The notes under the pieces were generated by a model. The model worked only from the letters and a program-made list of their open reading frames with translations. It was not told the DNA's origin and did not search any database. 64,000 bases of DNA, taken from positions 62,001 through 126,000 of the forward strand of contig NZ_WVIE01000005.1 of NCBI RefSeq assembly GCF_010091945.1, given 5' to 3'. The position numbers were made by a program, and so were the translations under genes. Position 1 is the stretch's first letter; every line of letters begins with the position of its first letter. Below are positions 20,497-36,317 of this stretch, in pieces. Source of the stretch: Myxacorys almedinensis A. GTDB taxonomy: Bacteria > Cyanobacteriota > Cyanobacteriia > Leptolyngbyales > Leptolyngbyaceae.

Positions 20497-20787
20497 GACG
20501 TGCAGCTTCCACCAATCAAGCTCAATCGCCCCAACATCGATGTGGGGCATTCAGCCACACGCTACTTTCGGGGATTCGGTCTGCCCTTCCACCTCTACGA
20601 TTTGCGCCATGCTTACGCCATTCGTGCCACGTTGACCTACGGCATGGATTACAAGCTCGTGGCAAAGATGATGGGGCACAGCTACGGGGTGCATGAGAGC
20701 ATCTATCACCGATGGCTGAACTTGGATGTGGTTCAGGCTGTCTATGATGCGGCGATCAACCGGCGCGATCGCGTGCCACCTCTATAG
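20497..20787 (+). pseudogene. Truncated integrase 3' end left by an earlier related element
   Basis: This 291-nt block aligns without gaps to the last 96 codons of the intact integrase at 35071-35361, with 8 mismatches by my count (about 97% identity). It keeps the second catalytic Arg region (LYDLRHAYAIR), the GH motif and the Tyr region (ESIYHRWLN), and the same stop codon. It has no N-terminal half, no first catalytic Arg and no start. Because it lies outside the left attachment repeat of the present element, the simplest explanation is an older integration of a close relative at the same tRNA, later deleted down to this stub. Confidence 0.85.
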
Positions 20788-20832
20788 AGAAAAGCTAGGA
20801 ACGGGAGCTACTCTCGTTCCTAGCTTTTTCTC
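20787..20832. terminator. Integrase-remnant terminator hairpin (inverted copy)
   Basis: A long stem (GAGAAAAGCTAGGAACG pairing with CGTTCCTAGCTTTTTCTC) encloses a short inner segment. It is the counterpart of the hairpin at 36265-36310. The inner GGGAGCTACTCTC here is the reverse complement of the GAGAGTAGCTCCC there, so the hairpin top has flipped between copies. Confidence 0.7.
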
Positions 20833-20839
20833 ACCACAA

Positions 20840-20861
20840 TACCCCCAGGGGAATTCGAATC
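20840..20861 (-). repeat. Left attachment site: 22-nt copy of the tRNA-Glu 3' end
   Basis: These 22 nt are identical to the 3' terminal part of tRNA-Glu at 36318-36339 (acceptor strand and T-arm, TACCCCCAGGGGAATTCGAATC on the plus strand split at that length). Identity stops at 20862, where the intact tRNA continues with CCCGTCG. With the integrase next to the intact tRNA, this is the distal attachment site of the element. The crossover must lie within the 22 nt. Confidence 0.85.
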
Positions 20862-20880
20862 AACGATACCGACCTTGGGC

Positions 20881-21195
20881 TTATGAGTCATGCGTACTAC
20901 CTGCGATCGCGCTGTGTTGATTCAGGTAGCGAATAAATCCAACTTGCTTCGGCTTCGATGCTCGTTCTCGCTCATCAACAAACACTACAGCCCACTCCTC
21001 AGTCTGACTGACAAGGGCATCTACATAACGCTTCATCACTTTTTCGTCTCTTTGCATGTATGGATGAAGTGCCTGACGAATAAACTGCTCTCTCCATTCC
21101 GTTGGCGTTTTGTTTGTGTGCTTTCCAAGCTCTTCGGTTGCCAACACAAATGATGCACAGTATGCCCATACATCAAACTCTTTATTGTTACTCAT
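20881..21195 (-). CDS. Hypothetical protein of the element
   Basis: The 104-aa soluble protein (MSNNKEFDVWAYCASFVLAT, then ELGKHTNKTPTEWREQFIRQ) is mostly helical and charged. I do not recognise it. It is the only leftward gene at the left end, starts next to a divergent region with the late-block promoter, and ends 20 nt from the attachment site. Its position, as first gene inside the distal attachment site, is where satellites and phages often carry accessory genes. Confidence 0.55.
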   Translation of the reverse strand: MSNNKEFDVWAYCASFVLATEELGKHTNKTPTEWREQFIRQALHPYMQRDEKVMKRYVDALVSQTEEWAVVFVDERERASKPKQVGFIRYLNQHSAIAGSTHDS

Positions 21196-21219
21196 GGCAC
21201 AATGGTAAAAAGATTAGTA

Positions 21220-21253
21220 AGCACCTCCTAGCCTATCTAGGAGGTGCTTTTTT
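21220..21253 (+). terminator. Hairpin with T-run ahead of the late block
   Basis: AGCACCTCCTAG and CTAGGAGGTGCT form a 12-bp stem with a 5-nt loop followed by a T6 run. It lies between the divergent gene at 20881-21195 and the first late gene at 21310, oriented to stop rightward transcription arriving from the chromosome. It could insulate the element, or act as an antitermination point. Confidence 0.65.
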
Positions 21254-21309
21254 CATCATTCCCGTGTAAGTAAGGCATCATATCGATGTTGATTTAAATC
21301 ACATATTCT

Positions 21310-21615
21310 ATGGTTGCTTTCGCCCCTTCCGATGTTCCGTCTTCCGTCAATTCCGTTGAAAAGTTGATCGTGTGGGCAAACAGTTTGATGGATGAGTTGC
21401 ATCCATCCGTGACCGCGATCGAAGCGTCAGGCGTTGCTGAGCGAGTTTGCGCCTCAGGCTTGTTCAAAATCACCGCCACCGACCCGGTGACATGGAGAGC
21501 GATTAGCCGCACCTCTATTCCCATCGGCTCATCGTGGCGACGGGGCAACGCCAAAATCTGGACATTTGCTCAAGACATCAGCAGTCAGGCGATTCCCACG
21601 GAATACAAGAGCTAA
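21310..21615 (+). CDS. Hypothetical protein, first gene of the late block
   Basis: The 101-aa product (MVAFAPSDVPSSVNSVEKLI, followed by WANSLMDELHPSVTAIEASG) has no recognised domain. It is Ser/Thr/Ala-rich with a likely mixed fold, including VCASGLFKITATDPVTWRAI, and no membrane segment. Its stop codon TAA directly abuts the ATG of the 978-aa protein, so translation is coupled. Position at the head of the block would suit a small structural or scaffolding protein, but that is speculation. Confidence 0.6.
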   Translation: MVAFAPSDVPSSVNSVEKLIVWANSLMDELHPSVTAIEASGVAERVCASGLFKITATDPVTWRAISRTSIPIGSSWRRGNAKIWTFAQDISSQAIPTEYKS

Positions 21616-24552
21616 ATGGCACGGGGAACGATCAATCCAGTTGATTTTTCTGGGGCACCTGGCGGCGGCGGCGGCTCGTTCGGTGGTGGAGCAGCGCGCC
21701 CTGGCGGCTTACCTGGCGGGTTGCCCCGTGGCTTTCCTACCAGTGGCTTGCCGCGCGGGGTTCCAGGAAACAACATCGTGCCGTTCCGCCCCCCTCCCGC
21801 CGCCACGCCCGGCGGGGGACGTGCCCCACTCCCACCCCCGACCGCGCCCATAACACCGCCTCAACCCGCCACCCCCCCAAGCAGTTTTAGACCGCCAGTT
21901 TTAGACGTGCCCAAACCGTTCACCCCGCCACTAGTTCCGCCACCGCCCGATCCGAACAAGCCGCGCCCCGCGCCACCGACCCCAGCAGAGCCGTTCGGAG
22001 TTCCCGCCGTCATCTATCACGTCACCGTAAACTGGACGGTGACGCGACCCGGTTTCTTTGGGGGAATGTTTCCAACGAACTACTCTCAAGTATTCGCTGT
22101 GGAAGCGCCCATTTATGGGTTGAACTTCATCAAGGCCAAATCCGCATCTGATTACGACAAACTTTTTCTAGATGCAGGCAATCAAAGCATTGGTGTATGG
22201 CCGGGGGCAGTTCCCCCTGATCCGAACGCCAAAGTCACGAATTACTACATCCCCAAAATTCAGAAGTTGGGCGACCCTCCGATCGACCTGACAGCGCCCA
22301 CACTCACCCCCCCGCCTGTCCTCGTTCCCGATCGCATTCCTCAGCAATTGCCTCCCGGCATTCCCGATCCGGTTGAACCGATCATCGTTCCCGATGTCAT
22401 TCCTCAGCAATTGCCGAAAGGCGTTCCCGATCGCGAGTATCCGGAACCCAATCAAGAACCTCAACCTCAACCCGAAGAACCGGAACAACCAAACCCCGAA
22501 CCCGAAACCCCCCCAGAAGACAACCCAAAAAAACCACCCGTTCCCCTCCCCACTCCCACCCCGCAGCCCCCTCCAGCGCCGGAACCACCGCCAGAGCCAA
22601 AACCACCAGAGCCAAAACCCGCAGACCCAGAGCGAGAACCCGAAACTCCCCCACTCATTTTCCCGCCGCCTACACCCAGACCTGATCCGCGTCCTACTCC
22701 GTTGCCCACCCCAGCGCCGGAGCCGCCGCCATTTCCAAACCCAAACCCCATCCCGCAGCAGGTTCCAAACCCATTTTCAAATCCGTTTTCAAACCCAAAC
22801 CTCATCCCGCAGCAGGTTCCAAACCCATTTTCAAATCCATTTCCATCCTCCCCTCCTACCCCAAATCCAAACCCTGTCCCATCACCCGGTCCGCAAACTC
22901 ATCCTCAACCGGAGCGCCCGGCACAAACTCCATCCCAACCGCAACCGCAAACTCCATCCCAACCAGAGCGGCCGGGGCAGGTTCCATCAGCAGTCCCCTC
23001 AGCGCCGGGGGCACCCTCACCGCAAGCCCCTCCCCTCGCTAACCCCAACCCCATCCCAACCCCTAACCCATCCCCTAACTCACCGCCGCTTAATCTTCCT
23101 CAGCCTACACCTCCCCCCGTTCCTGAACCTGATTGTCCTTGTGCTCCCGCCATGAGTTGCAGATTCCAACCTGAACCCCAAACAACCGTTAGCGTTCGTG
23201 TCTTTAAAGAATGCGTTCTAGGATTTCCCGTATTTGACACCATGTCGATTAAAACCTATACCGCAGAGGCAGCTAAAACCGTGCTGATGTTTGATCGCAT
23301 GGCAAATATTGAGGCCCAAAACTGTATTCCACCCGATCTTCTTCCTGATGAGGGCAGCCCAGCCCCCACAACGGCGATCGCGGTAAAAACCTTCAAGTCC
23401 TGCACAAAAGTAGGTAGTGATGGCACTGTGGTAGAGGAAATTGATTTTGAAGAGCAAGTGTTGCAAGTGCCTCAAGCCGAAGCCGCCTTATATCAATCGT
23501 TGTTTGATCGGCTTTTTGATCTTGCGACCGCGCAATGCGATCGCATTGACAACAATCAATCCCTAAAACGCATCTACAACATTCTTGGTGGGAACACCTG
23601 GTTTGGTTCGCCCCGACCAGAAGGGCTTGACCCAGACACGCCTCACTACAATCGTGACCTAGCGACCGACTTACTCAGCCTGAGTAACCTGCTGTACGAC
23701 AATGGCGAGCCAACCGCATCAACATCTTGGAATTTGATTGATTTGGTCCGTAACAGCCTAACGCCCATCTTCTACCATGCTGGCTTGCATCAATTTCCCG
23801 CCACCGTCCCCCAGTCGTTACTGACCTACTCAGATGGTCAGACTACATCGATCAACAACGTGACCGACCTTCTAGGTTGGCTCGTTAAGCAACTAGACGC
23901 ACTGATGGGACAGTTTCCCATCGAGATTGAAATAGAAGACGCCGATCCACTCCAGGAAGGCAATCAGACCAAGAAAATAGAATTGCCTAACCTCTCCGAA
24001 GCGATTGCAGAACTCTATGGACTGGCAATCACTAGCAGCACCAATTCTGATGTCGCGATTAACATGCTCATGCGATTGGTTGCTGAGGTGATTGGAACAA
24101 AGAATGCAACTCTGATCACTCAGGACTATGCGAAAGCGAATGCATCGTATTTGGGATATAAAGGCAATCCAAAACGTCGTGAAGTTGACTACTCATTCGA
24201 CCCAACCAAGTTAGACACACTCGACCAACTGCTAAAAGAGTCGAAAGGATACATTCAGGGATGGGAAGAAGACGATAAAAACTCCGTTGCTGAGTACCTG
24301 CAAAAACTCATGTTTGCATCAGGCGTGATTAAGGCGGCGTTCTTCCGAGACAGCAAGCTGATAGACAACCTGAAGAAAGAAGTTGAGGATTTAGCAACCG
24401 GATCGAAGGATGCGGATGATGGGGCGTGGGAACGCTTTAAGCAAGATCTCAACGATCCACTCTCTCCCTACAACGTCGGCACGGATAACCCTCAGCCACG
24501 CATTCGAGAGACTCCCTTTAGCCCTGAAGGTGACAATGGCTCTAGTTCTTGA
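21616..24552 (+). CDS. Large proline-rich multidomain protein of the element
   Basis: The 978-aa protein is the largest in the element. Residues 1-60 are Gly/Pro-rich, and 60-135 Pro-rich. About 135-235 forms a globular domain (PAVIYHVTVNWTVTRPGFFG). Residues 236-510 are an extreme Pro/Glu/Gln/Asn linker with PQQLP and PQQVPNPF repeats. Then a short Cys cluster (DCPCAPAMSC) leads to two related about 50-residue repeats, each beginning V-x-x-F-K-x-C and ending A-Q-(N)C. The last 330 residues look globular and helical. No signal peptide or membrane helix is seen. Architecture suggests an extended virion or surface fibre or spike-like protein, comparable in style to phage adsorption proteins with Pro-rich linkers. 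No family is recognised. Confidence 0.7.
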   Translation: MARGTINPVDFSGAPGGGGGSFGGGAARPGGLPGGLPRGFPTSGLPRGVPGNNIVPFRPPPAATPGGGRAPLPPPTAPITPPQPATPPSSFRPPVLDVPKPFTPPLVPPPPDPNKPRPAPPTPAEPFGVPAVIYHVTVNWTVTRPGFFGGMFPTNYSQVFAVEAPIYGLNFIKAKSASDYDKLFLDAGNQSIGVWPGAVPPDPNAKVTNYYIPKIQKLGDPPIDLTAPTLTPPPVLVPDRIPQQLPPGIPDPVEPIIVPDVIPQQLPKGVPDREYPEPNQEPQPQPEEPEQPNPEPETPPEDNPKKPPVPLPTPTPQPPPAPEPPPEPKPPEPKPADPEREPETPPLIFPPPTPRPDPRPTPLPTPAPEPPPFPNPNPIPQQVPNPFSNPFSNPNLIPQQVPNPFSNPFPSSPPTPNPNPVPSPGPQTHPQPERPAQTPSQPQPQTPSQPERPGQVPSAVPSAPGAPSPQAPPLANPNPIPTPNPSPNSPPLNLPQPTPPPVPEPDCPCAPAMSCRFQPEPQTTVSVRVFKECVLGFPVFDTMSIKTYTAEAAKTVLMFDRMANIEAQNCIPPDLLPDEGSPAPTTAIAVKTFKSCTKVGSDGTVVEEIDFEEQVLQVPQAEAALYQSLFDRLFDLATAQCDRIDNNQSLKRIYNILGGNTWFGSPRPEGLDPDTPHYNRDLATDLLSLSNLLYDNGEPTASTSWNLIDLVRNSLTPIFYHAGLHQFPATVPQSLLTYSDGQTTSINNVTDLLGWLVKQLDALMGQFPIEIEIEDADPLQEGNQTKKIELPNLSEAIAELYGLAITSSTNSDVAINMLMRLVAEVIGTKNATLITQDYAKANASYLGYKGNPKRREVDYSFDPTKLDTLDQLLKESKGYIQGWEEDDKNSVAEYLQKLMFASGVIKAAFFRDSKLIDNLKKEVEDLATGSKDADDGAWERFKQDLNDPLSPYNVGTDNPQPRIRETPFSPEGDNGSSS
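22741..22842 (+). repeat. Tandem 48-nt repeat in the proline-rich linker
   Basis: Two copies of a 48-nt unit (22741-22788 and 22795-22842, period 54 nt) differ at two positions. They encode NP(I/L)IPQQVPNPFSNPF. This is a recent in-frame duplication, showing that linker length can vary by slippage or recombination. Confidence 0.8.
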
Positions 24553-26101
24553 AACCGCCCAACTGCTTAGCCGGACTATTCGGATCAACGCCTCAAATGG
24601 GGTTACCGGATCAGCGCTGCTCTCATCGAATAGTGGCTCGGTGTTGAAACCGCGCAAAATTGCCAACCTGTTTAAGCTGAAAGGGGAACAGGAGGAAGGC
24701 GGCATTCTCCAAAATATTTGGAACGCTGCCGCCACCCTAGTAGGTTGGATTGGCGGTCTGGTGAAAGGCATCACCTTCAGTGCTACGGCGGTGTTTCAGT
24801 GGGTTATCGGTCGGATCGAGCAGCTAAAGTCCTTTGATTGGAACGCCTCTGACGATGCATACAAACAATTGATGGAGTCGCAAAATACTCGAATTGCTTC
24901 AATTTGGGGCGGCGTTGTGGGCAAGGGGCTGGGATGGCTCGCTGGAATTGCGATCGGTGCTGGCGTCGGCTATCTCTGCCCGGTACTAGGGGGAGCAACG
25001 CTGGCGAAGACGATATCTACGGCGGTCGGGGTGGAAGCGCTAGAAGAGTTTCTCCCCGCGTTCCGCAATGCCCTCGTTCAAACGGCGGGGGAGTTCGCCA
25101 ATCGCGGATTGCTCGTGGGATATATGAACTATCGAAACCTCCTCAAACGTGCCCCCCGCCCCCTGCTAGAGGCGATTTACGGAGCAGAGCAGGCAGACTT
25201 TATTCAAAACACATGGGGCAATAAAGGCGGCCCCAACATGTCGTTCAACTCTCAGATGGATGAATTGGTCGAATCCATCCAGAACGATGCCCTGCAAGCG
25301 TTTGTAGAAGAACTGCTAGATGAATCGTGGGACAGCTTTACGGAAGCTGGATTCGTAATCGCCCACGAACTCGACACAGCCTTGCAGCAGTACAGAGCCG
25401 GAAAACAGAACGAGAATGGCACTCCCAGGACGGCGTACCTCAAGCCCGACAAAGAGGCTGATGAGGTGCTGACGTTCACCTCGGTTCCTCAGAAGCTCCT
25501 GCAAACCTCGGTGCAGGAGACTTTGAACTCTCACCGACTGATTCACAACCGCGATGTAGGGGCGATCGTTGGTCAGCCAGCGAGCAACTTAGGGCGAGCG
25601 CTGCCGCAGCTTCGGCAACTCGTGGTCGTCTTCCGAGACCGTCCTCGTCCACCGTGGCGGCACACCAACGGCGATCGCTGCCGGGAAGCGTCCTACACCA
25701 TCCCTGACGTGAAATTAGGGTTGACTTGGCGGGATATCAAAGAGGTGTCTGAAGCTTACATGTGGGGCAAGTATCGAGCGACTGCTCACCTCGACAATCG
25801 GCGTCAGATGGCAGTGTATGGAGCAACGCCAGAGGACGCCAAACTAAAACTCAGGGCATTGCTGAGACTATCCACCTCAGAGGTGCTATCGCTGTCGATC
25901 ACCGAGGAAGAGGATAGACCCCAAAAGCTGAAAAAAACTCCCACCAAAATGTATCCCGTCTACTTCACACTGCTGGCCCGACGGAACACAATCGATGGGC
26001 AGGGACGAACCACGCTCGACAACACCACCCTTGATGAAACGGTGCGGCGGATCGAAATGTGGGGAGAAAATCCCCCGGCAGGGATGCAACCGCTGCTCTG
26101 A
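24536..26101 (+). CDS. Membrane-associated protein of the element, function unknown
   Basis: The 521-aa protein starts MALVLETAQLLSRTIRINAS at an ATG overlapping the end of the proline-rich gene by 17 nt. Two hydrophobic stretches are visible: about residues 55-95 (LVGWIGGLVKGITFSATAVF) and about 121-165, glycine-rich with small-residue spacing (VVGKGLGWLAGIAIGAGVGY). The remainder is soluble, with a C-terminal beta-rich part after residue 360 (LVVVFRDRPRPPW, then AMWGKYRATAHL-like strands). The glycine-zipper-like helices would suit a membrane-penetrating or pore-type protein. The C-terminus has a row of basic residues. No family is recognised. Translational coupling with the 978-aa gene suggests the products work together. 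Confidence 0.65.
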   Translation: MALVLETAQLLSRTIRINASNGVTGSALLSSNSGSVLKPRKIANLFKLKGEQEEGGILQNIWNAAATLVGWIGGLVKGITFSATAVFQWVIGRIEQLKSFDWNASDDAYKQLMESQNTRIASIWGGVVGKGLGWLAGIAIGAGVGYLCPVLGGATLAKTISTAVGVEALEEFLPAFRNALVQTAGEFANRGLLVGYMNYRNLLKRAPRPLLEAIYGAEQADFIQNTWGNKGGPNMSFNSQMDELVESIQNDALQAFVEELLDESWDSFTEAGFVIAHELDTALQQYRAGKQNENGTPRTAYLKPDKEADEVLTFTSVPQKLLQTSVQETLNSHRLIHNRDVGAIVGQPASNLGRALPQLRQLVVVFRDRPRPPWRHTNGDRCREASYTIPDVKLGLTWRDIKEVSEAYMWGKYRATAHLDNRRQMAVYGATPEDAKLKLRALLRLSTSEVLSLSITEEEDRPQKLKKTPTKMYPVYFTLLARRNTIDGQGRTTLDNTTLDETVRRIEMWGENPPAGMQPLL

Positions 26102-26279
26102 AATCGTGTATTCACGGACATAAGAATTTTGACGAAACCCTACGGGTTCCTGTGTTTTTTGCATACACTTTGCTCTCACAGAAACATCCAAAATATTCGA
26201 TAGATCCACTGAACTTTTGAAGATGTCTAGGGAATAGAGTGCAGCCATACCAACCTTTCAACAATTTGGATCTCTTTCT

Positions 26280-26822
26280 ATGGCACGTCGCTTTTCACAA
26301 ATTAAACGTGGGGCTGAATATAACAAGGGGCTAGACAACTACGTCCAGTACTTGCGTGATTCGGAGACTCGCCCAACGAAACGACTACAGGGCGGCGTGC
26401 GCGGGACGCGGCGCGTGTTGCTGATTCGGGCAGTAACTCCGTTTGGTATGACGCTTTCGGCTGGCGAGGTTTATCAGGTTCGGGCATCTCAAGACTCCAT
26501 TACAGGCATTGGATCGGCTGTTGGGACGACTCGTTTAATTACGCCTGCCCCTACGGCAGATCTCAACATCAACAAAAAGTTTAAGCCTGCCCGTGTTTCT
26601 GCCTTTAGAGGGTCAGGCACGGCAAGCTACGTCCAGTCCAAGGTAACCAAGCTTTTTTACCTGAAGTACGAAGGAGACTCGTTCTCACTGCCATTTGGGG
26701 CACTTAACGAGACCGAGGAAGAGGCAGACGGGGCAAGAGCGGTAAGAGTGGCAGTTTTGAGTGTGTTTGGATCAGCCGACATCAAGCGTGTCTCGTTCTC
26801 ACCAGAGCGTGTGCCCGTCTAA
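26280..26822 (+). CDS. Basic hypothetical protein of the late block
   Basis: The 180-aa protein starts MARRFSQIKRGAEYNKGLDN and is Arg/Lys-rich in its first third, then beta-rich (VLLIRAVTPFGMTLSAGEVY; KLFYLKYEGDSFSLPFGALN). There is no membrane segment and no known motif. The size, basic N-terminal arm and beta-rich body are what one might see in a small capsid or nucleic-acid-associated structural protein, so it is one candidate coat protein of the element; this is inference only. Its TAA stop overlaps the next ATG (TAATG), giving coupling. A 178-nt gap upstream holds a possible internal promoter. Confidence 0.6.
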   Translation: MARRFSQIKRGAEYNKGLDNYVQYLRDSETRPTKRLQGGVRGTRRVLLIRAVTPFGMTLSAGEVYQVRASQDSITGIGSAVGTTRLITPAPTADLNINKKFKPARVSAFRGSGTASYVQSKVTKLFYLKYEGDSFSLPFGALNETEEEADGARAVRVAVLSVFGSADIKRVSFSPERVPV

Positions 26823-27073
26823 TGGACGCTCTAAAGCTGCTTGACACACCTCTCATTGTTCTGCCGGGGATGACTGACGCAGACATTGACACCCAGTGGG
26901 ACTTGCACGTCCTGCGGGTGCAAATGACCGACGGCTTTCTTCAGGGCACGATTGATCCAGAAACCTATTTTGACTTCATGGCTCAGCAGGGCTATGAGCC
27001 AGAACAGCTAATGGATGATGCAGAAGAGAATCTTCAGTTTGCGATTCAAAAGGGGCTAAAAATCGAGAAGTGA
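26822..27073 (+). CDS. Small acidic hypothetical protein of the late block
   Basis: The 83-aa acidic protein (MDALKLLDTPLIVLPGMTDA, with an Asp/Glu-rich helical C-terminus) overlaps the previous stop by one base and the next start by four (GTGA). It has no recognised domain. A DFMAQQGYEPEQLMDDAEEN segment is a plausible helix-loop-helix. Its size and coupling to the basic 180-aa protein would suit a chaperone or scaffolding partner, but I have no direct evidence. Confidence 0.6.
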   Translation: MDALKLLDTPLIVLPGMTDADIDTQWDLHVLRVQMTDGFLQGTIDPETYFDFMAQQGYEPEQLMDDAEENLQFAIQKGLKIEK

Positions 27074-27546
27074 GTCATCCCATTCTGCAATTGGGCAATG
27101 TCCAGAATTGGACGTTGCTCTACAGTGAGACCTTGAACGCAGAAGAGACGTTTGCAGGGAGAGGATTTAGACCCATCCCTGCACGGCTCATTCCCTTGCA
27201 GATTGAGCATCGAATTTTAATCGTGGGAACAGCGAGCAATAAGGGGATTCGCTCGACCTGGAATACCGGCGGGTGGATCACACCCCTAATCGCGTGGGGT
27301 GGGAACAACAACACAATGGACGCGGATTTAGGCTCGTGGCGCATCCCGTTGAACAAACAGCGTCTCATACTGTTGCCTGACATCGCCCCGAATTACAAAC
27401 TTCGATTCTCGACTCCCTCCTGGATGCAACAAATGTCAGTCACGATTTACCAGTATTCAGGCCCCGAAGACGACAGCACCGAACTCCTCATTGGGCAGTT
27501 GCAAACACAACTGGATCGAATTGAGGGTCAAATCTCGCCTAACTAA
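27070..27546 (+). CDS. Hypothetical protein of the late block
   Basis: The 158-aa protein starts at a GTG that overlaps the previous TGA (GTGA, 4-nt coupling). It appears beta-rich (LIPLQIEHRILIVGTASNKG; WRIPLNKQRLILLPDIAPNY), with a C-terminal coiled segment (ELLIGQLQTQLDRIEGQISP) typical of phage structural proteins that trimerise. No family is recognised. Confidence 0.6.
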   Translation: MSHPILQLGNVQNWTLLYSETLNAEETFAGRGFRPIPARLIPLQIEHRILIVGTASNKGIRSTWNTGGWITPLIAWGGNNNTMDADLGSWRIPLNKQRLILLPDIAPNYKLRFSTPSWMQQMSVTIYQYSGPEDDSTELLIGQLQTQLDRIEGQISPN

Positions 27547-27564
27547 TGTTCTCCTTTAAGCACC

Positions 27565-27882
27565 ATGCCACTGTTTGATCTTGAGGGATCTTCTACCTCC
27601 CAAAACCGCAAAACCTCTGTCACTAGGGTTAGCAAGTCCGCATCTACTTTACCGGTCGCATTGCTGTCAGCAAACGAAAATCGGGTTGGCGCTACGATTT
27701 TTAATCGCAGTAGCTCAATTCTCTATCTTGATTTTGCTGAGCAATTGTCCCCTGAAGATTTTGCAGTAGAGGTTCCACCTGGTGGCTACTTTGAAACGCC
27801 GTTTTCGCCTGTAACGGGAATGTGGGGGCGCTGGCGATCGTCAAACGGCAAGGCGTTGATTCGAGATTTTGTAGAGGTATAA
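27565..27882 (+). CDS. Phage decoration/structural-like protein, copy 1
   Basis: The 105-aa protein shares its fold with the next gene product. The common pattern is R-x-GAT-(I/L)-FN-x-S followed by LY, an acidic or polar strand, then PxGY(F/Y)E-(T/V)-PF, and a final G-x-A-L-I-x-(D/E)-F. I recall this small beta-domain from tailed-phage late regions, where it is taken to be a capsid decoration or fibre-associated protein; the assignment is tentative. It has a polar, Ser-rich N-terminal arm. Confidence 0.6.
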   Translation: MPLFDLEGSSTSQNRKTSVTRVSKSASTLPVALLSANENRVGATIFNRSSSILYLDFAEQLSPEDFAVEVPPGGYFETPFSPVTGMWGRWRSSNGKALIRDFVEV

Positions 27883-27886
27883 AAGC

Positions 27887-28198
27887 ATGGGACTTTACAA
27901 CCCGCCCCCCGTGGCGCTGGAACAGCCGAAAGCGAACACAGCTTCACACTACGCGATCAACGCAGCAACGACTTCCACCGCGCTACTAGCGGTCAATCTT
28001 GACCGTCTTGGGGCAACACTGTTTAACAACAGCACCGCTCGCCTGTATGTGAAATTGGGTGCAACAGCGACTACAACTGACTTCACGTTCCCCCTAGAGC
28101 CAAACGGTTACTATGAGGTGCCGTTTGGCTATACCGGCTCAATTGCGGGGGTGTGGGCGGCGGTTAATGGCAATGCGTTAATCTCTGAATTTCTGTAA
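27887..28198 (+). CDS. Phage decoration/structural-like protein, copy 2
   Basis: The 103-aa paralogue of the preceding gene product contains NLDRLGATLFNNSTARLYVK, LEPNGYYEVPFGYTGSIAGV and a NGNALISEF ending. The two genes are 4 nt apart, so they arose by tandem duplication and have diverged strongly (about 35-40% identity by eye over the shared domain). The N-terminus (MGLYNPPPVALEQPK) resembles that of the next gene product (MALHNPPIVDWSKPG). Its TAA stop overlaps the next ATG. Confidence 0.65.
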   Translation: MGLYNPPPVALEQPKANTASHYAINAATTSTALLAVNLDRLGATLFNNSTARLYVKLGATATTTDFTFPLEPNGYYEVPFGYTGSIAGVWAAVNGNALISEFL

Positions 28199-28899
28199 TG
28201 GCACTGCATAACCCGCCCATTGTCGATTGGTCAAAGCCGGGTGCGATCGGTGCGATCGCGCCAGCGCCAGCAACGTTCACCACGCTCGCAACGACGGCGG
28301 CTCCCTATTCCTCAGGGCAAAGTTTCCTCTTTGTTCGGGGTAGCACTGGGGGGCTGACACTCGCTCCCCTCACCTTTGATGGAACGGCGTTTCGTCCTCT
28401 CACCAGCAATGGCGGGGTCGGGTCGCTGACGATCGTTGCCAATCGCCAGTTTGAAGCGGGGCTATCCCTGATTAATAGCCATGTCAACGGTCGGGGACTA
28501 CGGATTGACCTTCCAGGGGTTACGGCAAATCAGCCCGTCATCTATGGATCAGGCGACAATTACACCAAAAATTGGTCGTTTTGGTTCAACCCTTCCATGT
28601 CGCTGCTGACGCTTGACAGCGTGAAATTTGGCGTTCTCAATACAACCGCATCTACCGCTCCAAATAACGGGGCGCTGACTGTCAACGGCGGCATGGGTGT
28701 GGGCGGCGCACTCAATGCAGGCGGCACGATATCGGGAACGATGATCAGACCTGGTTCGTACACTGTTGCAACCGTGCCAACCGCCAGCGCCAATGCCGGG
28801 GCAATGATTTACGTCTCCAATGAAATTGGAGGGGGCACCATCGCCTTTAGTGATGGCACGACCTGGCGACGGGTTCACGACCGAGAAGTTATCTCTTAA
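28198..28899 (+). CDS. Phage tail-fibre-like protein
   Basis: The 233-aa protein has an N-terminal arm like the upstream gene, a repetitive Thr/Ala/Gly-rich beta region (FTTLATTAAPYSSGQSFLFV; NNGALTVNGGMGVGGALNAG) and a C-terminal tip AMIYVSNEIGGGTIAFSDGT followed by TWRRVHDREVIS. That tip, with YVSNE...FSDGT-x-WRRV, is a recurring end of phage tail fibres and receptor-binding or neck-appendage proteins. It is therefore the clearest structural-phage signature in the element and the likely host-contact protein. Confidence 0.75.
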   Translation: MALHNPPIVDWSKPGAIGAIAPAPATFTTLATTAAPYSSGQSFLFVRGSTGGLTLAPLTFDGTAFRPLTSNGGVGSLTIVANRQFEAGLSLINSHVNGRGLRIDLPGVTANQPVIYGSGDNYTKNWSFWFNPSMSLLTLDSVKFGVLNTTASTAPNNGALTVNGGMGVGGALNAGGTISGTMIRPGSYTVATVPTASANAGAMIYVSNEIGGGTIAFSDGTTWRRVHDREVIS

Positions 28900-28903
28900 C
28901 GTT

Positions 28904-29188
28904 ATGCAGCAAACCAGAACGACACAACTTGTCCCTTACGAACTGTTGGCGCGATGGGACGATGCTGGCAATTTCAAGGGGGCACATATTCAATTTCTAG
29001 GGAAGGTTTTAGACGACGACGGCAATGCGATCGCATCTCAACTGATGCCGCCACAAGCAATCTCAGTTGGGGAGCAGGCAGGATTTCCGCTCTCCGAAAT
29101 CTTGGATCAACTGCACATCGATGCGCTCAAACGCATTGAGGCGCTAGAGCTTCAAATCGAATCACTCAATCAAGCTAGTAACCCATGA
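28904..29188 (+). CDS. Fibre-associated hypothetical protein
   Basis: The 94-aa protein starts MQQTRTTQLVPYELLARWDD, with a beta-rich body (GAHIQFLGKVLDDDGNAIAS) and a C-terminal helix with heptad-like spacing (LKRIEALELQIESLNQA). Similar small genes lie next to fibre genes in phages. An ATG at 28904, immediately after the fibre gene stop, is preferred to any longer frame overlapping the fibre gene. Confidence 0.6.
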   Translation: MQQTRTTQLVPYELLARWDDAGNFKGAHIQFLGKVLDDDGNAIASQLMPPQAISVGEQAGFPLSEILDQLHIDALKRIEALELQIESLNQASNP

Positions 29189-29334
29189 AAATCACTCGTC
29201 AACTCAAACAGAGAATCGCCTTCATCGCCTTTCAAATTGCCATTGGGCAACTCAACACGCGGGAAGCGATCGCAGACACCCTGCGAGCCTTCTTAAGCGA
29301 ATTGGAGCCGCAAATCGATGCAAATCAGAACTGA
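29185..29334 (+). CDS. Short hypothetical protein (49 aa)
   Basis: This 49-codon gene starts at an ATG that overlaps the previous TGA (ATGA), so it is translationally coupled. The product (MKITRQLKQRIAFIAFQIAI, then GQLNTREAIADTLRAFLSEL) is a basic then acidic helical peptide. It is too short for family assignment, but coding is supported by the coupling and by overlap with the next start. Confidence 0.55.
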   Translation: MKITRQLKQRIAFIAFQIAIGQLNTREAIADTLRAFLSELEPQIDANQN

Positions 29335-29617
29335 AGCAGTCATCTTTGCCATCAGCTTTCTCTCCTTCTGTTCGATGATCACCATGAGCGTCTGGAAGTC
29401 TGCGGCGTCCGTGAGCCGCATACAGCACAACCTGGAGAAGAAAGATATTTTGCTGGAAAGTTTACAAGATAAGCTGACCCTGCACTTTAATGGGTTGAAG
29501 GAACGATTCGAGCATTTTGCCCAGCGATCGCGCGGAGAAGTGCAGGCGTTAGAGAAGCGGGTGCAACAGATGGAACGATTCCTGCAAAAGTCAACCAACT
29601 TTGATCCGAGGGACTAA
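29318..29617 (+). CDS. Small membrane protein with coiled coil
   Basis: The 99-aa protein has one N-terminal transmembrane helix (AVIFAISFLSFCSMITMSVW, about residues 7-26) followed by a long charged helix predicted to coil (IQHNLEKKDILLESLQDKLT; RGEVQALEKRVQQMERFLQK). This layout is seen in phage spanin-like or holin-accessory proteins and in small morphogenesis proteins. It overlaps the preceding gene by 17 nt. No lysin gene is recognised nearby, so a lysis role is only a guess. Confidence 0.6.
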   Translation: MQIRTEAVIFAISFLSFCSMITMSVWKSAASVSRIQHNLEKKDILLESLQDKLTLHFNGLKERFEHFAQRSRGEVQALEKRVQQMERFLQKSTNFDPRD

Positions 29618-29621
29618 GACG

Positions 29622-29855
29622 ATGAGCATGGATGATGAAATCCGAATCGCGGTGGGCATAGTGCGGCTGTGGTTGCTGCAAGAGGGACTGATGGATAAGC
29701 ATTCAACGGCGATCGCACTCCAACAACTAACCCTGGAAATTCAGCGCAACATTGCAATCGTGGGGGATGGCGGTCGGGGGAGAGCCGAAAATTCCCCGAA
29801 GGATGTTATTTCCTCTGACGGCTTAAATTTGGTGAATATTAGCTCCACACTCTAG
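29622..29855 (+). CDS. Last gene of the late block, hypothetical
   Basis: The 77-aa protein (MSMDDEIRIAVGIVRLWLLQ, helical, then a polar tail) follows the membrane/coiled-coil gene by 4 nt. There is no known domain. The short amphipathic helix pair is consistent with a small accessory or regulatory protein. After it the strand of coding reverses. Confidence 0.5.
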   Translation: MSMDDEIRIAVGIVRLWLLQEGLMDKHSTAIALQQLTLEIQRNIAIVGDGGRGRAENSPKDVISSDGLNLVNISSTL

Positions 29856-29986
29856 GTGGACTAGATTTGGACTATATTACCGTTCGGTTATAGTCTGAAA
29901 CCCTCAGTTTCTCGTGGGATGACACACCTTCCAGGAACGAGAGAGTGGGGGTTTTCCTAGGGTCTTCTGCGGTGTGGGGCAGAAGG

Positions 29987-30178
29987 TCAGGAGGGTACAA
30001 GCTCGCGACTTTTGATGAAATGCCCGATCGATGAGCGAATTAACCGCTTCTTTGAGGAGTCAAGATTTTCGTACCAAACGAACGACTCGTTAACCTTAAC
30101 GACTTGATAATGATGATGGATTCCAAATTCGTTGGGCTTGTCCGTCCAGACTTGGTTCGTGACAACTAGTTGTGTCAT
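29987..30178 (-). CDS. Small hypothetical protein
   Basis: The 63-aa soluble protein (MTQLVVTNQVWTDKPNEFGI, then HHHYQVVKVNESFVWYENLD) is the last gene of the leftward block. It is beta-rich with several aromatic residues. No family is recognised. Confidence 0.45.
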   Translation of the reverse strand: MTQLVVTNQVWTDKPNEFGIHHHYQVVKVNESFVWYENLDSSKKRLIRSSIGHFIKSRELVPS

Positions 30179-30209
30179 AAGGGTTAGTTGGGTTTGTGGC
30201 AGAAGGTCA

Positions 30210-30527
30210 TTACTCTAACCCAAGGCGATCGCTGATCACTTGCCAGATGCGACGATTCTCGGTTTGCAGTCCTCTCACTTCTGATTGCATTTCATCAATG
30301 CGATTTAGAACCTGGTCAAACCGGTCATCTATCCGCGCCATTCGCACTTCATTGCGCTCCATGTATTGCAATTGTGCTTCTGCAAGTCGTTCAACGGCAT
30401 TGGTGGTGATGGCATTGTTTTGATAAAAGGCGTCGATCAATCGGTTGAGTGAGATTTTGACATCGGTCATGTCAACTTCGAGACGTTCCACCCGATCGGG
30501 CAGGTTGTTTGAGGATTGGTCAGTCAT
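30210..30527 (-). CDS. Coiled-coil protein of the element
   Basis: The 105-aa protein consists almost entirely of heptad-like helix (RVERLEVDMTDVKISLNRLI; RMARIDDRFDQVLNRIDEMQ). It has no membrane helix. It is a member of the small helical proteins common in cyanobacterial phage and plasmid early regions; no specific function is known. A hairpin lies just upstream. Confidence 0.55.
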   Translation of the reverse strand: MTDQSSNNLPDRVERLEVDMTDVKISLNRLIDAFYQNNAITTNAVERLAEAQLQYMERNEVRMARIDDRFDQVLNRIDEMQSEVRGLQTENRRIWQVISDRLGLE

Positions 30528-30557
30528 AATTGAAGTGCTAATAAGTATTCATATTTT

Positions 30558-30596
30558 AAGCCCTCCCAGATTGGAACTGGAAGGGCTTTTTTGCGC
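30558..30596 (+). terminator. Hairpin with T-run (rightward)
   Basis: AGCCCTCCCAG and CTGGAAGGGCT form an interrupted stem followed by T6 on the plus strand. It lies upstream of a leftward gene. It would block transcripts coming from the late block, which fits a boundary between opposing modules. Confidence 0.55.
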
Positions 30597-30617
30597 TCTC
30601 AAACTGTTAGCTAATCG

Positions 30618-30836
30618 CTACTCCACTGCAGACAGTTTATGTTCCTCATGCCATTCTTCACCACTGTCATCGGTAGGTTGCGCTCCTTCGACAACGCAGT
30701 AGCTCCAGGCGTACTTGTCTCGCTTTAGCCCAATGATGTGACCAATATCCCCATCTGCCTGAACTTTCTGACCGAGATGGAATTTGGGCATCATGAATGG
30801 AATTACAGAGTGATCAATTCGGATTTGTTCAACCAT
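30618..30836 (-). CDS. Small hypothetical protein (SH3-like pattern)
   Basis: The 72-aa protein starts MVEQIRIDHSVIPFMMPKFH and continues LGQKVQADGDIGHIIGLKRD, a pattern of short strands (KFHLGQKVQ...GHIIGL...WSYCVVE) like small SH3/KOW-type beta barrels of phage proteins. The frame is open further upstream through a palindrome, but the ATG at 30836 is the sensible start. Function unknown. Confidence 0.55.
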   Translation of the reverse strand: MVEQIRIDHSVIPFMMPKFHLGQKVQADGDIGHIIGLKRDKYAWSYCVVEGAQPTDDSGEEWHEEHKLSAVE

Positions 30837-30850
30837 TATTAGCCTACCTT

Positions 30851-30904
30851 TGATACGTTTAAGCCCCTCACGACAATATTGCTGTGAGGGGCTTAAACGT
30901 ATCA
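30851..30904. repeat. Perfect 21-bp inverted repeat (cruciform-capable)
   Basis: Two 21-nt arms (30851-30871 and 30884-30904) are exact reverse complements around a 12-nt loop containing CAATATTG. It lies between two leftward small genes. The T-runs that would make it a clear terminator are missing on both strands. It could be a terminator, an RNA processing site, or a protein-binding or cruciform site. Confidence 0.7.
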
Positions 30905-30968
30905 TTCCCAAGCTGTTGGTTGATCAGCAGATCGCGGTGAGTGGAAACGCCGCGATCGCACCTCAGAA

Positions 30969-31085
30969 TTATGCCGACTTGGGCTTGGCAGACTGTTTAT
31001 GGCTTAAATGCTCTAACCGAGCCTTCACAGCAGCAGGACTCTTAAGTTTCATGGCGTTAAGCATTTGCTCAATCTCTGTTTTCAT
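30969..31085 (-). CDS. Short basic protein (38 aa)
   Basis: This 38-codon frame starts MKTEIEQMLNAMKLKSPAAV at an ATG overlapping the TGA of the upstream gene (ATGA), a strong sign of coupling. The product is helical and Lys-rich. No family. Confidence 0.5.
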   Translation of the reverse strand: MKTEIEQMLNAMKLKSPAAVKARLEHLSHKQSAKPKSA

Positions 31086-31366
31086 GACTCTTCCTCATCC
31101 CAATTAACATACAACTCTTGAAGATCTTTTTCGGTCTGAGCTTCATAGTATTCATCCTGTTCTAGGCGTTGATTGCATTCATCGTGCCAAGATTGCGGAT
31201 AGTCCATATTGTAACAACCTCCGGTGGGCTTTCCGTCATCATCAAGACTACTCGTAAAAGCATCGCCGCCTTGCAGCATTGCTCTTGCCTGCTCTCCTCC
31301 TCGCTGCATTACATCTTCATCGGTCATATCATCTTCACCATCGTAGCCACGCCATGACTTTGGCAT
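31082..31366 (-). CDS. Acidic hypothetical protein of the element
   Basis: The 94-aa protein (MPKSWRGYDGEDDMTDEDVM; many Asp/Glu/Gln) has no recognised domain. A YPQSWHDECNQRLEQDEYYE region is helical. High acidity and small size resemble phage or satellite early proteins that target host enzymes, such as DNA mimics and inhibitors, but no specific match is claimed. It is followed by a coupled 38-aa gene. Confidence 0.5.
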   Translation of the reverse strand: MPKSWRGYDGEDDMTDEDVMQRGGEQARAMLQGGDAFTSSLDDDGKPTGGCYNMDYPQSWHDECNQRLEQDEYYEAQTEKDLQELYVNWDEEES

Positions 31367-31585
31367 AATTGAATTACCTCGATTGTTTGGGGTGAACCAG
31401 GGTGGGAGGTTCCAATTTCACGCCCTGGTTTCAGAATTTGATGTTTAATTGAAGTCTCTGTAGCGGGATAAACAGCCTACGGAGCGCCGCCAAGGGAAGT
31501 TCGCGCTTCCGCTTGGCTCTGAATGCTAGATCATTGTGCTTACTCTCCTAATTACAAAATTCGAGTCAACGCTGAAGTATGTGGG

Positions 31586-31822
31586 TCATGCTTCAGCGTT
31601 TTTGTTTGGACCAAAATAGGCGGGGAGTTCGTGAATAGAACAGTCCAGAAGCAGGCAGAGAGCCTGAACCTGCTTGATCGTCAGGCGAGGCTCGCGGTTA
31701 CCCGACGTCCAGTAATAAACTGCCCTTGGCGATACACCAAGCGCTTTTGCTACGTCTTCTGGAGTTTTGCTCTTGTCCTGTAAAAGGCTCATGAACTGCG
31801 AATCGTGTCTATTTTTGCTCAT
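31586..31822 (-). CDS. XRE-family transcriptional regulator of the element
   Basis: The protein (78 aa from the ATG at 31822) is a helix-turn-helix of the Cro/C1 type: KTPEDVAKALGVSPRAVYYW is the recognition motif, and TSGNREPRLTIKQVQALCLL the following helices. It lacks the peptidase or oligomerisation domain of larger CI repressors. Alternative ATGs at 31843 and 31792 cannot be excluded; no clear Shine-Dalgarno precedes any of them. A 44-bp palindrome overlaps its start, consistent with autorepression. It divides leftward from rightward genes and is the likely lysogeny or copy-number control of the element. Confidence 0.75.
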   Translation of the reverse strand: MSKNRHDSQFMSLLQDKSKTPEDVAKALGVSPRAVYYWTSGNREPRLTIKQVQALCLLLDCSIHELPAYFGPNKNAEA

Positions 31823-31864
31823 TCTAACTGAACTCTTGTTCATGAACAAGTGTTCAGTTAGAAT
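31821..31864. promoter_or_regulatory. 44-bp operator palindrome at the regulator start
   Basis: Two 21-nt arms, 31821-31841 and 31844-31864, are inverted with one mismatch around a central AT. The core is GAACAAGtGTTCAGTTAGAAT. A third half-site, ACTGAACACTTGTTC, lies at 31872-31886. The leftward strand offers TTGTTC and TAGAAT spaced 17 nt, a plausible promoter, overlapping the palindrome. The site is where the XRE regulator would be expected to bind. Confidence 0.7.
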
Positions 31865-31946
31865 ATTCAGGACTGAACACTTGTTCGGTTGACGTAGCGG
31901 TGTAGGGCTAGATTTGCCGTCCTTCCCTGCACTGCTCCTCAAAAAT

Positions 31947-31983
31947 CATCCCCCACTACCTCTCTAAGAGATAGCGGGGGATG
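31947..31983. terminator. Hairpin between regulator region and rightward genes
   Basis: ATCCCCC and GGGGGAT close a stem continued by interrupted pairing (CTACCTCT with AGAGATAG) around CTA. There is no T-run. It may be a terminator, or part of a leader RNA of the rightward block. Confidence 0.45.
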
Positions 31984-32046
31984 CCAGTATGCGATCGCTT
32001 GCCGCGATTCGCCCGTTAGATAAACACTTGAACCTAAGGATAGACC

Positions 32047-32307
32047 ATGCAGACTCAACACCGCTCAAACAGCGCCATCCTCGAACTGATAGCCGACGAA
32101 TGGGGGTCACACCTAGAGCGCTTCTCCTACGCCCAAAAAACAGAAGCCCTCGTCATCCTCAGCCACCTGCTGCATACCCACTCCCTTGCAGATGTTCAGA
32201 GCCACCTCCTGCCCAGAAACTTTCTGCTCCTGCTTAACCAACTCACCGTTAAGGGGCTGCTGGGATTAGTGACAGCGATCGCCCATCAGCTACGCGACGA
32301 CAAATAA
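32047..32307 (+). CDS. Hypothetical protein, first gene of the rightward early block
   Basis: The 86-aa helical protein (MQTQHRSNSAILELIADEWG, HLERFSYAQKTEALVILSHL) has no recognised domain. It is the first gene divergent from the XRE regulator, the position of cro, cII or alpA-type genes, but no clear helix-turn-helix is seen. HIP1-like sequences flank it. Confidence 0.55.
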   Translation: MQTQHRSNSAILELIADEWGSHLERFSYAQKTEALVILSHLLHTHSLADVQSHLLPRNFLLLLNQLTVKGLLGLVTAIAHQLRDDK

Positions 32308-32357
32308 AAACGCGATCGCTACGCAAGCTCCGAAGGATCGCATCAACCAGGAAAGAC

Positions 32358-32537
32358 ATGTTTGCAGACGTTTACATCTCTACGGCTGAGCTTAAGCCGC
32401 TTCTAGTTCAGGCAATCTCTCTGAAGCTCAAACACCCCATCTCAGAAGATGACATCACCCAAATTAACTCCTCTGCCGATGACGACGGAGACCTAACCGC
32501 AATCTCCGTGACGTTTGAACTTCGCGACGACGAATAA
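32358..32537 (+). CDS. Short acidic hypothetical protein (59 aa)
   Basis: The 59-aa frame starts MFADVYISTAELKPLLVQAI and ends with a DDDGDLTAISVTFELRDDE-like acidic tail. A GAAAGA purine stretch precedes the ATG. No family is recognised. The end (RDDE) recalls that of the previous gene (RDDK) but the two are otherwise different. A strong terminator follows. Confidence 0.5.
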   Translation: MFADVYISTAELKPLLVQAISLKLKHPISEDDITQINSSADDDGDLTAISVTFELRDDE

Positions 32538-32543
32538 AAACGC

Positions 32544-32590
32544 AAAAAGGGGGAAAGAGTGTCATCAGCACCCTTCCCCCCCTTTTTTTT
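32544..32590 (+). terminator. Strong intrinsic terminator before the ATPase gene
   Basis: AAAAAGGGGGAA pairs with TTCCCCCCCTTTTT across an inner loop, ending in T8. It separates the short early genes from the RepA-like gene, which must therefore use its own promoter, or antitermination. Confidence 0.7.
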
Positions 32591-32672
32591 GGATTCCGCA
32601 ATCCGTATACACCCTTCCACGTTGTGACGAATAAAACAACGTGAGATACACGCTTACAAAACACTCAAACCA

Positions 32673-34553
32673 ATGCTATCAACCTTTTCCAAGCATACTT
32701 CCAAATCAGATGCTCTTGCTGACCTGGAGGCAACCGCCCGCGTCCGCTTTGAGGACAGGGTTCTAGAGTCTACCGCTCTCAACCTCACCAGTCCAGAGCT
32801 TGCCAGAAAAGAACTTGCTCAACTTGGCAGAAGCTATGACATTCCGCTAGAAGTCATGGAGCAGGTCGCTGAGGTCTTAATGAAAGACCGCCTAGGCGTA
32901 GACCTGGAAGAGCGAGAATTCACTCGCATGGTAGAAAGCATCCGTGACATCGAAGCGATCGTAGATGCCGGGCTGCGGGAATTCAAACTTGCCAAGCTCG
33001 CCAAGCGCCTCAAAATCCCGCAATCGTCCATGATGAACGCCTACCACAAGGCGCTGATCAACCAAGCCCCATTCGTTGCATACGACATGGATCAACTCGA
33101 TGATCTTTGTGTCCAGGTCAAGGAGTGGATCGTTAACGGATGGATTCCGAAAGGCATTGTTCTCCTACTCCACGCCCTCGGTGGCACCGGCAAGTCTCTG
33201 CTGATTTACGAACTCATCGAGTGCATCGTCAAGGGGCAGCCGTGGAATGGCTACCCTGTGGCTCAAGGAAGAGTCCTCATTCTGCAATCCGATGAACCCG
33301 TTATCGTCACTCGTGAACGCCTCAAAATTCGAGATCTTGAGAAATCTCACCCCGTGCAGTTGGTACCCGGCTGGCAAGTTGAGAACATGCCAAGACTGGA
33401 AGCCTACCTGAAGCAGTACCAGGATGCAGGAGACCCGGTGCGATTCTGCATGATTGACTCGGTGACAGCGATCAACCGGAACACGTTGATCAGCGAGAAC
33501 GACACCGAATACGCTCGTTTCATGCTCCAACTCAACGACCTTGGCGATCGCTACGGGTGCACCTTTGCCGTCGTGCACCATTCCAACTCTGAGGGGCAAT
33601 CACGCGGCACTAAAGCCCTCTACAACTCTGCTTCAGAAGTATGGGGCATGGGGGTAACCGATGAGCAGAGCGGGGAACGAGTCATCCGGGTGCAGAAAAC
33701 TCGTATGGGACGCCCCCCAGGGCGCTATAAGTTCCAATTCGATGAAGAGACCTTTACCTTTGCCTACGTCGGTCAGGAAGGGGAAGAGACCGAGGAAACT
33801 GCCCACACCGAGAAGCGGATCGAATTGTGGCTGAATGAAGATGCCAATCTTGGGGTCGGGTTTGAGGCAGAAGAAATTGCTCACCATCTGCAATTGAATC
33901 GAAACACCGTCCGCAAAGTTTTGAAGGAGATGTGGGCAAAGGGTTTAGCACTGAGGTATCCAAAAGGACACAACAGAACCATGCTTTACCACTGCGGGAC
34001 AAGGTTGATCGAGGGGGAAGGTCGATCAACCCGCGATCAACCCGCGATCAAAGGCTCCAACGGAGACCAAATGGACGTTTCAAGCTCTATTGATCGGTTG
34101 ATCGACCAAAACGCGGATTTTTCACTGTTGAAAAACGCGAATTTAGGCGATCAACCGATCAATAGCCCGATCCAAGAGGCGACCAACGGAATAGATAAAA
34201 GGGTTGTAGCCTTTGATCGCCAAGTTGATCGACCGGTTGATCGCGGGTTGATCGACCCCCCTGCTATTGACAACAACTTAACAGAAGTTAACGTTGGCGA
34301 TCTGGTCATTGCCAGTGCTAAAGCTACGTGGTTTAGGTATAAAAGTGACAAACTTCCTTACCGTGAAATCAAGGACAAGAGTTTCGTTGAAATCAACGCC
34401 TTGAGTGAGCCACTGTTCTTTGAATTAATCGAACCCAGTAAGGTATTGGAGGTCAACGGCGATCGCGTCAGGGTCAGAAACCAGCGAACCGCTAAAACCA
34501 GCGTCTTCTACCTCAAAGATGTGAGCCGATTGGAGAAAGCCCATCATGATTAG
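32673..34553 (+). CDS. RepA/AAA_25-like ATPase with HTH, probable replication protein
   Basis: The 626-aa protein has a helical N-terminus, then a RecA-fold ATPase: Walker A GGTGKSLLIYEL near residue 170, a second strand RVLILQSDEP, and Walker B FCMIDSVTAI near 258, with a VVHHSNSEGQ sensor region typical of RepA-like hexameric helicases and AAA_25 proteins. A winged-helix/HTH follows at about 400-425 (IAHHLQLNRNTVRKVLKEMW), then a low-complexity Asp/Arg/Gln/Ile linker encoded by the iteron-like repeats, and an SH3/KOW-like end (VGDLVIASAKATWFRYKSDK). No primase motif is obvious. It most likely unwinds DNA or loads a helicase for replication of the excised element. It overlaps the integrase start by 8 nt. 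Confidence 0.75.
   Translation: MLSTFSKHTSKSDALADLEATARVRFEDRVLESTALNLTSPELARKELAQLGRSYDIPLEVMEQVAEVLMKDRLGVDLEEREFTRMVESIRDIEAIVDAGLREFKLAKLAKRLKIPQSSMMNAYHKALINQAPFVAYDMDQLDDLCVQVKEWIVNGWIPKGIVLLLHALGGTGKSLLIYELIECIVKGQPWNGYPVAQGRVLILQSDEPVIVTRERLKIRDLEKSHPVQLVPGWQVENMPRLEAYLKQYQDAGDPVRFCMIDSVTAINRNTLISENDTEYARFMLQLNDLGDRYGCTFAVVHHSNSEGQSRGTKALYNSASEVWGMGVTDEQSGERVIRVQKTRMGRPPGRYKFQFDEETFTFAYVGQEGEETEETAHTEKRIELWLNEDANLGVGFEAEEIAHHLQLNRNTVRKVLKEMWAKGLALRYPKGHNRTMLYHCGTRLIEGEGRSTRDQPAIKGSNGDQMDVSSSIDRLIDQNADFSLLKNANLGDQPINSPIQEATNGIDKRVVAFDRQVDRPVDRGLIDPPAIDNNLTEVNVGDLVIASAKATWFRYKSDKLPYREIKDKSFVEINALSEPLFFELIEPSKVLEVNGDRVRVRNQRTAKTSVFYLKDVSRLEKAHHD
34003..34257. repeat. Iteron-like repeats GGTTGATCG inside the ATPase gene (candidate origin)
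   Basis: Eight copies of (A/G)GTTGATCG occur in 255 nt: direct at 34003, 34096, 34223, 34235 and 34246, and inverted (CGATCAACC/T) at 34023, 34034 and 34148; at least four degenerate copies lie between them. The fullest form, GGTTGATCGACC, is itself nearly palindromic (GGTYGATCRACC). They lie in the poorly conserved linker of a replication-type protein, as origin iterons do in phage lambda O and in several plasmid and satellite replicons. The GATCG core overlaps HIP1, which inflates apparent similarity. Confidence 0.6.
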
Positions 34554-36260: not shown

Positions 36261-36264
36261 TATA

Positions 36265-36310
36265 GAGAAAAGCTAGGAACGAGAGTAGCTCCCGTTCCTA
36301 GCTTTTTCTC
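36265..36310. terminator. Bidirectional terminator between the element and tRNA-Glu
   Basis: GAGAAAAGCTAGGAACG pairs with CGTTCCTAGCTTTTTCTC in a long hairpin. It originally terminated the integrase (now separated by the IS) and serves the convergent tRNA-Glu gene. The inner loop is flipped compared with 20787-20832. Confidence 0.75.
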
Positions 36311-36317
36311 ACCACAA

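Follow-up and report, generated by a model that had tools for sequence, protein, structure and literature searches.

The question raised by this locus of Myxacorys almedinensis A is whether a densely packed run of genes in the analysed window (the whole stretch of 64,000 nucleotides) is a phage late operon and, if so, to what kind of element an operon without a recognised capsid gene could belong. A same-strand block was confirmed on the plus strand at positions 21310–29855 (about 8.5 kb), with many of its genes overlapping (Table 1). The initial annotation had counted fourteen genes, whereas the open reading frames and junctions read from the sequence give 13. Its description of the block as a coupled chain holds for most genes, which abut or overlap through ATGA, GTGA and TAATG junctions, but gaps of 178 nt between C and D and of 18 nt between F and G break the chain. 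Genes A and B abut (TAA/ATG at 21615/21616), and B and C overlap by 17 nt with the start of C at ATG 24536, which was chosen instead of 24410 since homologues begin there. The D/E and H/I junctions are TAATG, the E/F junction is GTGA and the J/J2 junction is ATGA; I and J are spaced by 4 nt, J2 and K overlap, and K and L touch or overlap according to which start of L is taken. The same gene order in dozens of cyanobacterial loci together with purifying selection (dN/dS of 0.03–0.10 for C, D and E, and of 0.20 for B) indicates that the block is not a product of chance. For its ten main proteins, Pfam gave no acceptable match and PHROGs gave weak matches alone.

Table 1. Features of the block and its surroundings, with positions in the window.
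Feature	Position	Strand	Description
Integrase 3′ remnant	20500–20787	+	97% identity over 292 bp to the intact right-end integrase
Left attachment repeat	20781–20861		81 bp, terminates in tRNA-Glu 3′ sequence; 94% identical to 36259–36339
A	21310–21615	+	101 aa, small, 5′ of B; homologues at the same place in 11 loci
B	21616–24552	+	978 aa; characterized by alignment; present in 59 of 63 fetched stretches
C	24536–26101	+	521 aa; predicted fold; profile matches in 58 of 390 genomes
D	26280–26822	+	180 aa, pI 10.2
E	26822–27073	+	83 aa, pI 4.1; partner of D
F	27070–27546	+	158 aa; conserved family adjoining E
G	27565–27882	+	105 aa; paralogue of H
H	27887–28198	+	103 aa; virion-surface/fibre-type domain; podovirus homologue, E 1e-13
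I	28198–28899	+	233 aa; fibre-like by sequence alone; without family match
J	28904–29188	+	about 94 aa; open reading frame and junctions
J2	29185–29334	+	49 aa; ATGA junction
K	29318–29617	+	99 aa; one transmembrane helix and coiled coil; holin-like by layout
L	29601–29855	+	84 aa; alternative start ATG 29622; homologue after K in L027
CI/Cro-type HTH repressor	31586–31942	-	PF01381, E 8e-7
RepA-like AAA_25 helicase	32673–34553	+	626 aa; PF13481, E 2e-23
Tyrosine integrase	34546–35361	+	271 aa; PF00589, E 3e-4; 39–54% identity to relatives' integrases
IS	35364–36262	+	directly 3′ of integrase gene; two-frame transposase; terminal inverted repeats read
Right attachment repeat	36259–36339		overlaps tRNA-Glu 36317–36391 (-)

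The true unit is larger than the block: it is an integrated element of about 15.5 kb (positions 20848–36339), whose ends are formed by a repeat that includes the tRNA-Glu 3′ end. A site-specific integrase adjoins its own attachment site here, as seen from the integrase gene, the tRNA-Glu gene and the 81-bp repeat, and the 14-bp core of this repeat occurs just twice in the 64-kb window. By family assignment, the element also encodes a RepA-like helicase and a repressor of the CI type. The integrase remnant to the left is probably the trace of an earlier tandem copy; that such arrays form is seen in a relative: genome G191 carries two identical tandem copies of its element with a period of 15,374 bp. 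The congeneric genome G001 has this site occupied as well: one contig carries an ArsA-type gene and a similar integrase remnant, and another the integrase, tRNA-Glu and the right-hand neighbour gene. The helicase-integrase part of G001 shows 83% DNA identity to that of the window, but the C proteins are just 30–33% identical, so that an exchange of modules has taken place.

Relatives were detected with the C profile in about 15% of the sampled cyanobacterial genomes (58/390), and all 24 loci found by a GTDB-wide scan were cyanobacterial. Among 63 fetched stretches, which include a few overlapping pieces of single loci, profiles recovered C (62 stretches), B (59), D of one type or the other (54) and E (51), and the B-C-D-E core is kept in most of them. 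The integrases of relatives lie near tRNA-Met, -Thr, -Leu and -Glu genes, and the replication genes differ among them (AAA_25, VapE-type, DUF3854 and others). The arrangement of the late module also varies: in L066, L067, L070, L107 and other loci it is divergent, with E-D-f6 on one strand and a gene for a 270-aa protein, B and C on the other, and in several Nostocales loci (L108, L109, L110, L136–L143) C is present as two open reading frames or as an N-terminal match only. Additionally, a small gene (family f5) of about 70 aa with a median pI of 11 closely follows C, on the other strand, in 31 loci, for example at L115:14547–14792 (-); no copy was found in the window. The interpretation of f5 as a spurious open reading frame opposite C was dropped, as it is a separate convergent gene in many relatives. 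One relative (L023, G040:C10) carries at 211–2376 a CBASS pair of a DncV-like CD-NTase and an HNH-SAVED effector, by which such elements can bring anti-phage defence.

Several genomes show that the family is mobile. Genome G309 contains an integrated copy on contig C7 (approximately 3,373,008–3,391,345) flanked by a 50-bp att repeat with tRNA-like sequence, and its separate contig C5 (L115) of 18,288 bp, which is 100% identical to this copy and circularly permuted, looks like the excised circle of it; the comparison of C5 with C7 thus reveals an excised circular form in a relative. Furthermore, Tolypothrix sp. PCC 7601 has the module on a circular plasmid of 20,757 bp (unnamed14), whose annotation lists the module's genes as hypothetical proteins. 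The circle and integrated copy in G309, the tandem copies in G191 and the Tolypothrix plasmid establish that the element family moves. No family member was found in IMG/VR, where the scans reach close relatives only, and INPHARED phages gave no match for D, C, the C-terminus of B, the 270-aa family or the f3-type D described below. Likewise, no description of the element family was found in the open literature, to which the search was confined, subscription papers lying outside it.

The proline-rich 978-aa protein noted initially is indeed present as B. Its alignment revealed a variable N-terminus, which is proline-rich here and collagen-like or repetitive in relatives, and a C-terminal domain of some 290 aa that is conserved, and B is suggested to be a fibre or spike. 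In C, initially designated a membrane protein, one marginal hydrophobic segment was found; the model of C (pLDDT 78) shows long helical hairpins followed by a well-predicted alpha/beta C-terminal domain. The structural neighbours of this model were generic long helices, such as those of BAR domains and pore formers. Their Z values of up to 8.3 lie within the chance range for helical models, and C is therefore not called a toxin or pore. Tape-measure families of PHROGs were matched weakly by both B and C, but this similarity was put down to helices or low complexity and disregarded. C may have a role at the membrane or in entry.

The fibre- and decoration-like character ascribed to the last third of the block could be upheld in part, namely for G and H through a podovirus homologue and, in relatives, through positional counterparts that match PHROG tail families. 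The H-type domain has a 45%-identical homologue in Manatee Spring podovirus genomes, where H matches unannotated DNA 3′ of the coat gene; in the deposited podovirus genome MW202524.1 (L144), this unannotated H-type domain is encoded at approximately 8083–8337. The fibre-like protein of G309 at the same position matches PHROG minor-tail and fibre families at up to 1e-11. In one group of relatives, a gene for an FHA-domain protein follows the fibre genes (L115:505–1116). The operon in L080 terminates in an M15 endolysin gene (phrog_894, 5e-22), and phrog_894 endolysins are also encoded in L079, L081, L092 and L101, in three of the five loci directly behind the K-type protein; no endolysin was found in the element of the window. 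These fibre and endolysin features are as expected of a phage late operon with a lysis function, but do not suit an ordinary cellular system. If the block were instead a non-viral system for surface functions or competition, carried by an integrative plasmid, its particle-like proteins would act without packaging DNA. This would agree with the existence of plasmid forms and with the lack of a recognised packaging gene, but such a system is very unlikely in view of the endolysin, the holin-like genes, the CI-type repressors and the fibre proteins beside the core. Moreover, relaxase or conjugation genes were present neither in the element of the window nor among the matches listed for four elements. 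Neither ordinary enzymes, adhesins nor a cellular surface system, the outcomes named at the outset as speaking against a structural operon, appeared in the block: it travels with an integrase, a repressor and a replication gene, a relative is excised and the endolysin occurs in five loci.

D, initially put forward as one candidate coat protein, is basic as first described (pI 10.2), and across the loci D is always basic (8.7–10.5) and E always acidic (4.1–4.9). The two genes are nearly always adjacent on one strand, often with a one-base overlap, and form cassettes of two types, f18-f20 (that of the window) and f3-f4, which have no sequence relationship to each other. Wherever both genes were found (45 loci), the types were matched (6 f18-f20, 39 f3-f4, none mixed), for which the chance under random assortment of 6 + 39 is about 1 in 8 million when phylogeny is ignored. 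This strict matching makes it very probable that D and E act together. A grouping of the window's D with f3 in one family was tried and given up, as the profile comparison yielded a probability of about 1%, and both were kept separate. The f3 protein is an internal duplication (98.9% probability in the comparison of its halves), and this f3-type D, the positional counterpart of the window's D in 39 loci, was modelled with confidence (pLDDT 92, pTM 0.85) as four beta-beta-alpha units, a secondary structure that is neither that of a jelly roll, of HK97 nor of a helical bundle. Comparison of this model with PDB and BFVD gave no match (best E 0.3 and 0.13; best Z 2.7 in a second look), although an absent structural match of a model does not prove a new fold. 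D is regarded as a candidate DNA-contacting core or coat protein, and E as its putative partner or chaperone.

No terminase, portal, known coat protein or conserved packaging ATPase was recognised in the element or its relatives. A large terminase was found neither in the element of the window using Pfam and PHROGs, nor among the matches listed for four elements, nor near the element in 28 carrier genomes; the matches listed for 66 proteins of four elements comprise integrases, regulators, helicases, primases, nucleases, an endolysin and a fibre protein. The initial statement that no packaging ATPase is visible holds for the block, and the sole P-loop protein of the window's element is the RepA-like helicase; an FtsK/HerA-type packaging ATPase is lacking there, and no match to the Zot/pI-type morphogenesis ATPase that serves as inovirus criterion was obtained. 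Sequence searches for an HK97-fold coat or portal gave no match, nor did the structural comparison, which covered the f3-type D model, and profile searches against PDB returned nothing useful for B, C, f3-type D, F and the small proteins and no jelly-roll match. Overall, the view of the block as a phage-like late operon without a recognisable capsid or packaging gene was supported. Descent from a known tailless group (DJR or single-jelly-roll membrane, filamentous or pleomorphic viruses), with coat and ATPase drifted beyond recognition, would fit the genome size and lysogeny as well as F and the 270-aa proteins of some relatives, which appear strand-rich by eye, and the extra P-loop proteins of a few relatives, one of which is a clear FtsK/SpoIIIE member. 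These extra ATPases are, however, not conserved family-wide, and with PDB profiles of no use for the proteins named above we judge such a descent to be quite improbable.

The terminases of the carriers bear on a further explanation, that of a phage satellite with adhesion, entry and lysis proteins of its own, which borrows head and packaging motor from a tailed helper. Of the 28 carrier genomes, 8 have Terminase_6N, 10 have strong phrog_2 matches and none has PF03354; the phrog_2 matches of 1e-4 to 1e-7 that turned up in almost every genome were attributed to cross-matching by other P-loop proteins. The size of 15–20 kb, the integrase, the VapE- or primase-type replication genes of relatives, the presence of fibre and lysis genes in the absence of head and terminase genes and the terminases of some carriers are all in line with a satellite. 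On the other hand, 18 of the 28 carriers, among them the genome of the window and G309, gave no clear terminase match, so that no tailed helper is resident in them. To our knowledge, satellites of the P4 and PICI types bring no whole late operon with lysis genes. On these grounds a satellite is rather unlikely, although a helper might also come in from outside.

We propose a temperate virus-like element, integrated in the host genome and known here from its genes alone, whose late genes make up the block, and assign to this reading a probability of about 0.6. The insertion is at a tRNA gene's 3′ end, beside the tyrosine integrase, and for a relative both an integrated copy and a DNA circle were found. 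Apart from the integrase, tRNA-Glu and att repeats, the proposal draws on the G309 circle, the G191 tandems, the Tolypothrix plasmid and the tRNA-adjoining integrases of relatives, on the conserved B-C-D-E core with its purifying selection and matched D-E cassettes, on the PHROG fibre matches, the M15 endolysin at the operon 3′ end and the podovirus H-type domain, and on the 18 carriers, out of 28, that lack a clear terminase. The repressor would hold the late operon off in the lysogen, and the replicon would be copied once excised. The late operon would then yield a particle in which basic D with acidic E contacts or coats the DNA, C might work at the membrane in entry or assembly, B might serve as a long fibre or spike anchored via its conserved C-terminus, and F to J might form the host-recognition part, whereas K, joined by the endolysin in some relatives, would open the cell. 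Counted against a virus-like element are the lack of a recognised coat, portal or packaging motor, which leaves its autonomy unproven, and the lack of an endolysin in the window's own element. For an abundant free virus, the absence of the family from both IMG/VR and INPHARED, as far as these were searched, would be surprising, although collections based on hallmark genes would miss such elements. More tentatively, and with somewhat less than even odds, the family may represent a widespread new group of cyanobacterial temperate viruses with particle proteins unrelated to known coats, a D/E nucleoprotein or shell and no terminase-type motor, which would have been overlooked since virus finders look for known hallmark genes.

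Elements that occur in 58 of 390 cyanobacteria, are excisable and CBASS-capable and are missing from virus collections as searched would be either a virus lineage with an unrecognised shell or a type of satellite equipped with genes of its own for entry and lysis; either alternative, if true, would alter the way in which cyanobacterial prophages are counted, and the carrier strains make the question directly testable. Tycheposons are cyanobacterial elements that target tRNA genes and possess a tyrosine recombinase, and in these general traits, including the host, the element resembles them; we know of no late operon common to both. The satellite phage-plasmids of group G8 from glacial viromes, which are circular, smaller than 16 kb and have an integrase, a primase and few recognisable structural genes, are similar by description only, in precisely these features (PMC4490671). 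Small tailless temperate phages, such as those of Vibrio, likewise have small integrated genomes missed by standard prophage finders, but they are known by tailless or filamentous hallmark proteins, none of which was recognised in the element (PMC11630473). With P4, PICI and cf-PICI satellites the element shares its size, the integrase, a VapE/RepA-type primase/helicase and the incomplete morphogenesis set; it differs from them in its own large late operon, in the lysis genes of some members and in that most of its carrier genomes are devoid of a terminase. Finally, in comparison with Caudoviricetes the element lacks a recognised terminase, portal and HK97 coat and reaches just 15–20 kb, but it has in common with their temperate prophages the tRNA-targeting integrase, the CI-type repressor and a late operon in which fibres precede lysis, and with their podoviruses the H-type domain.
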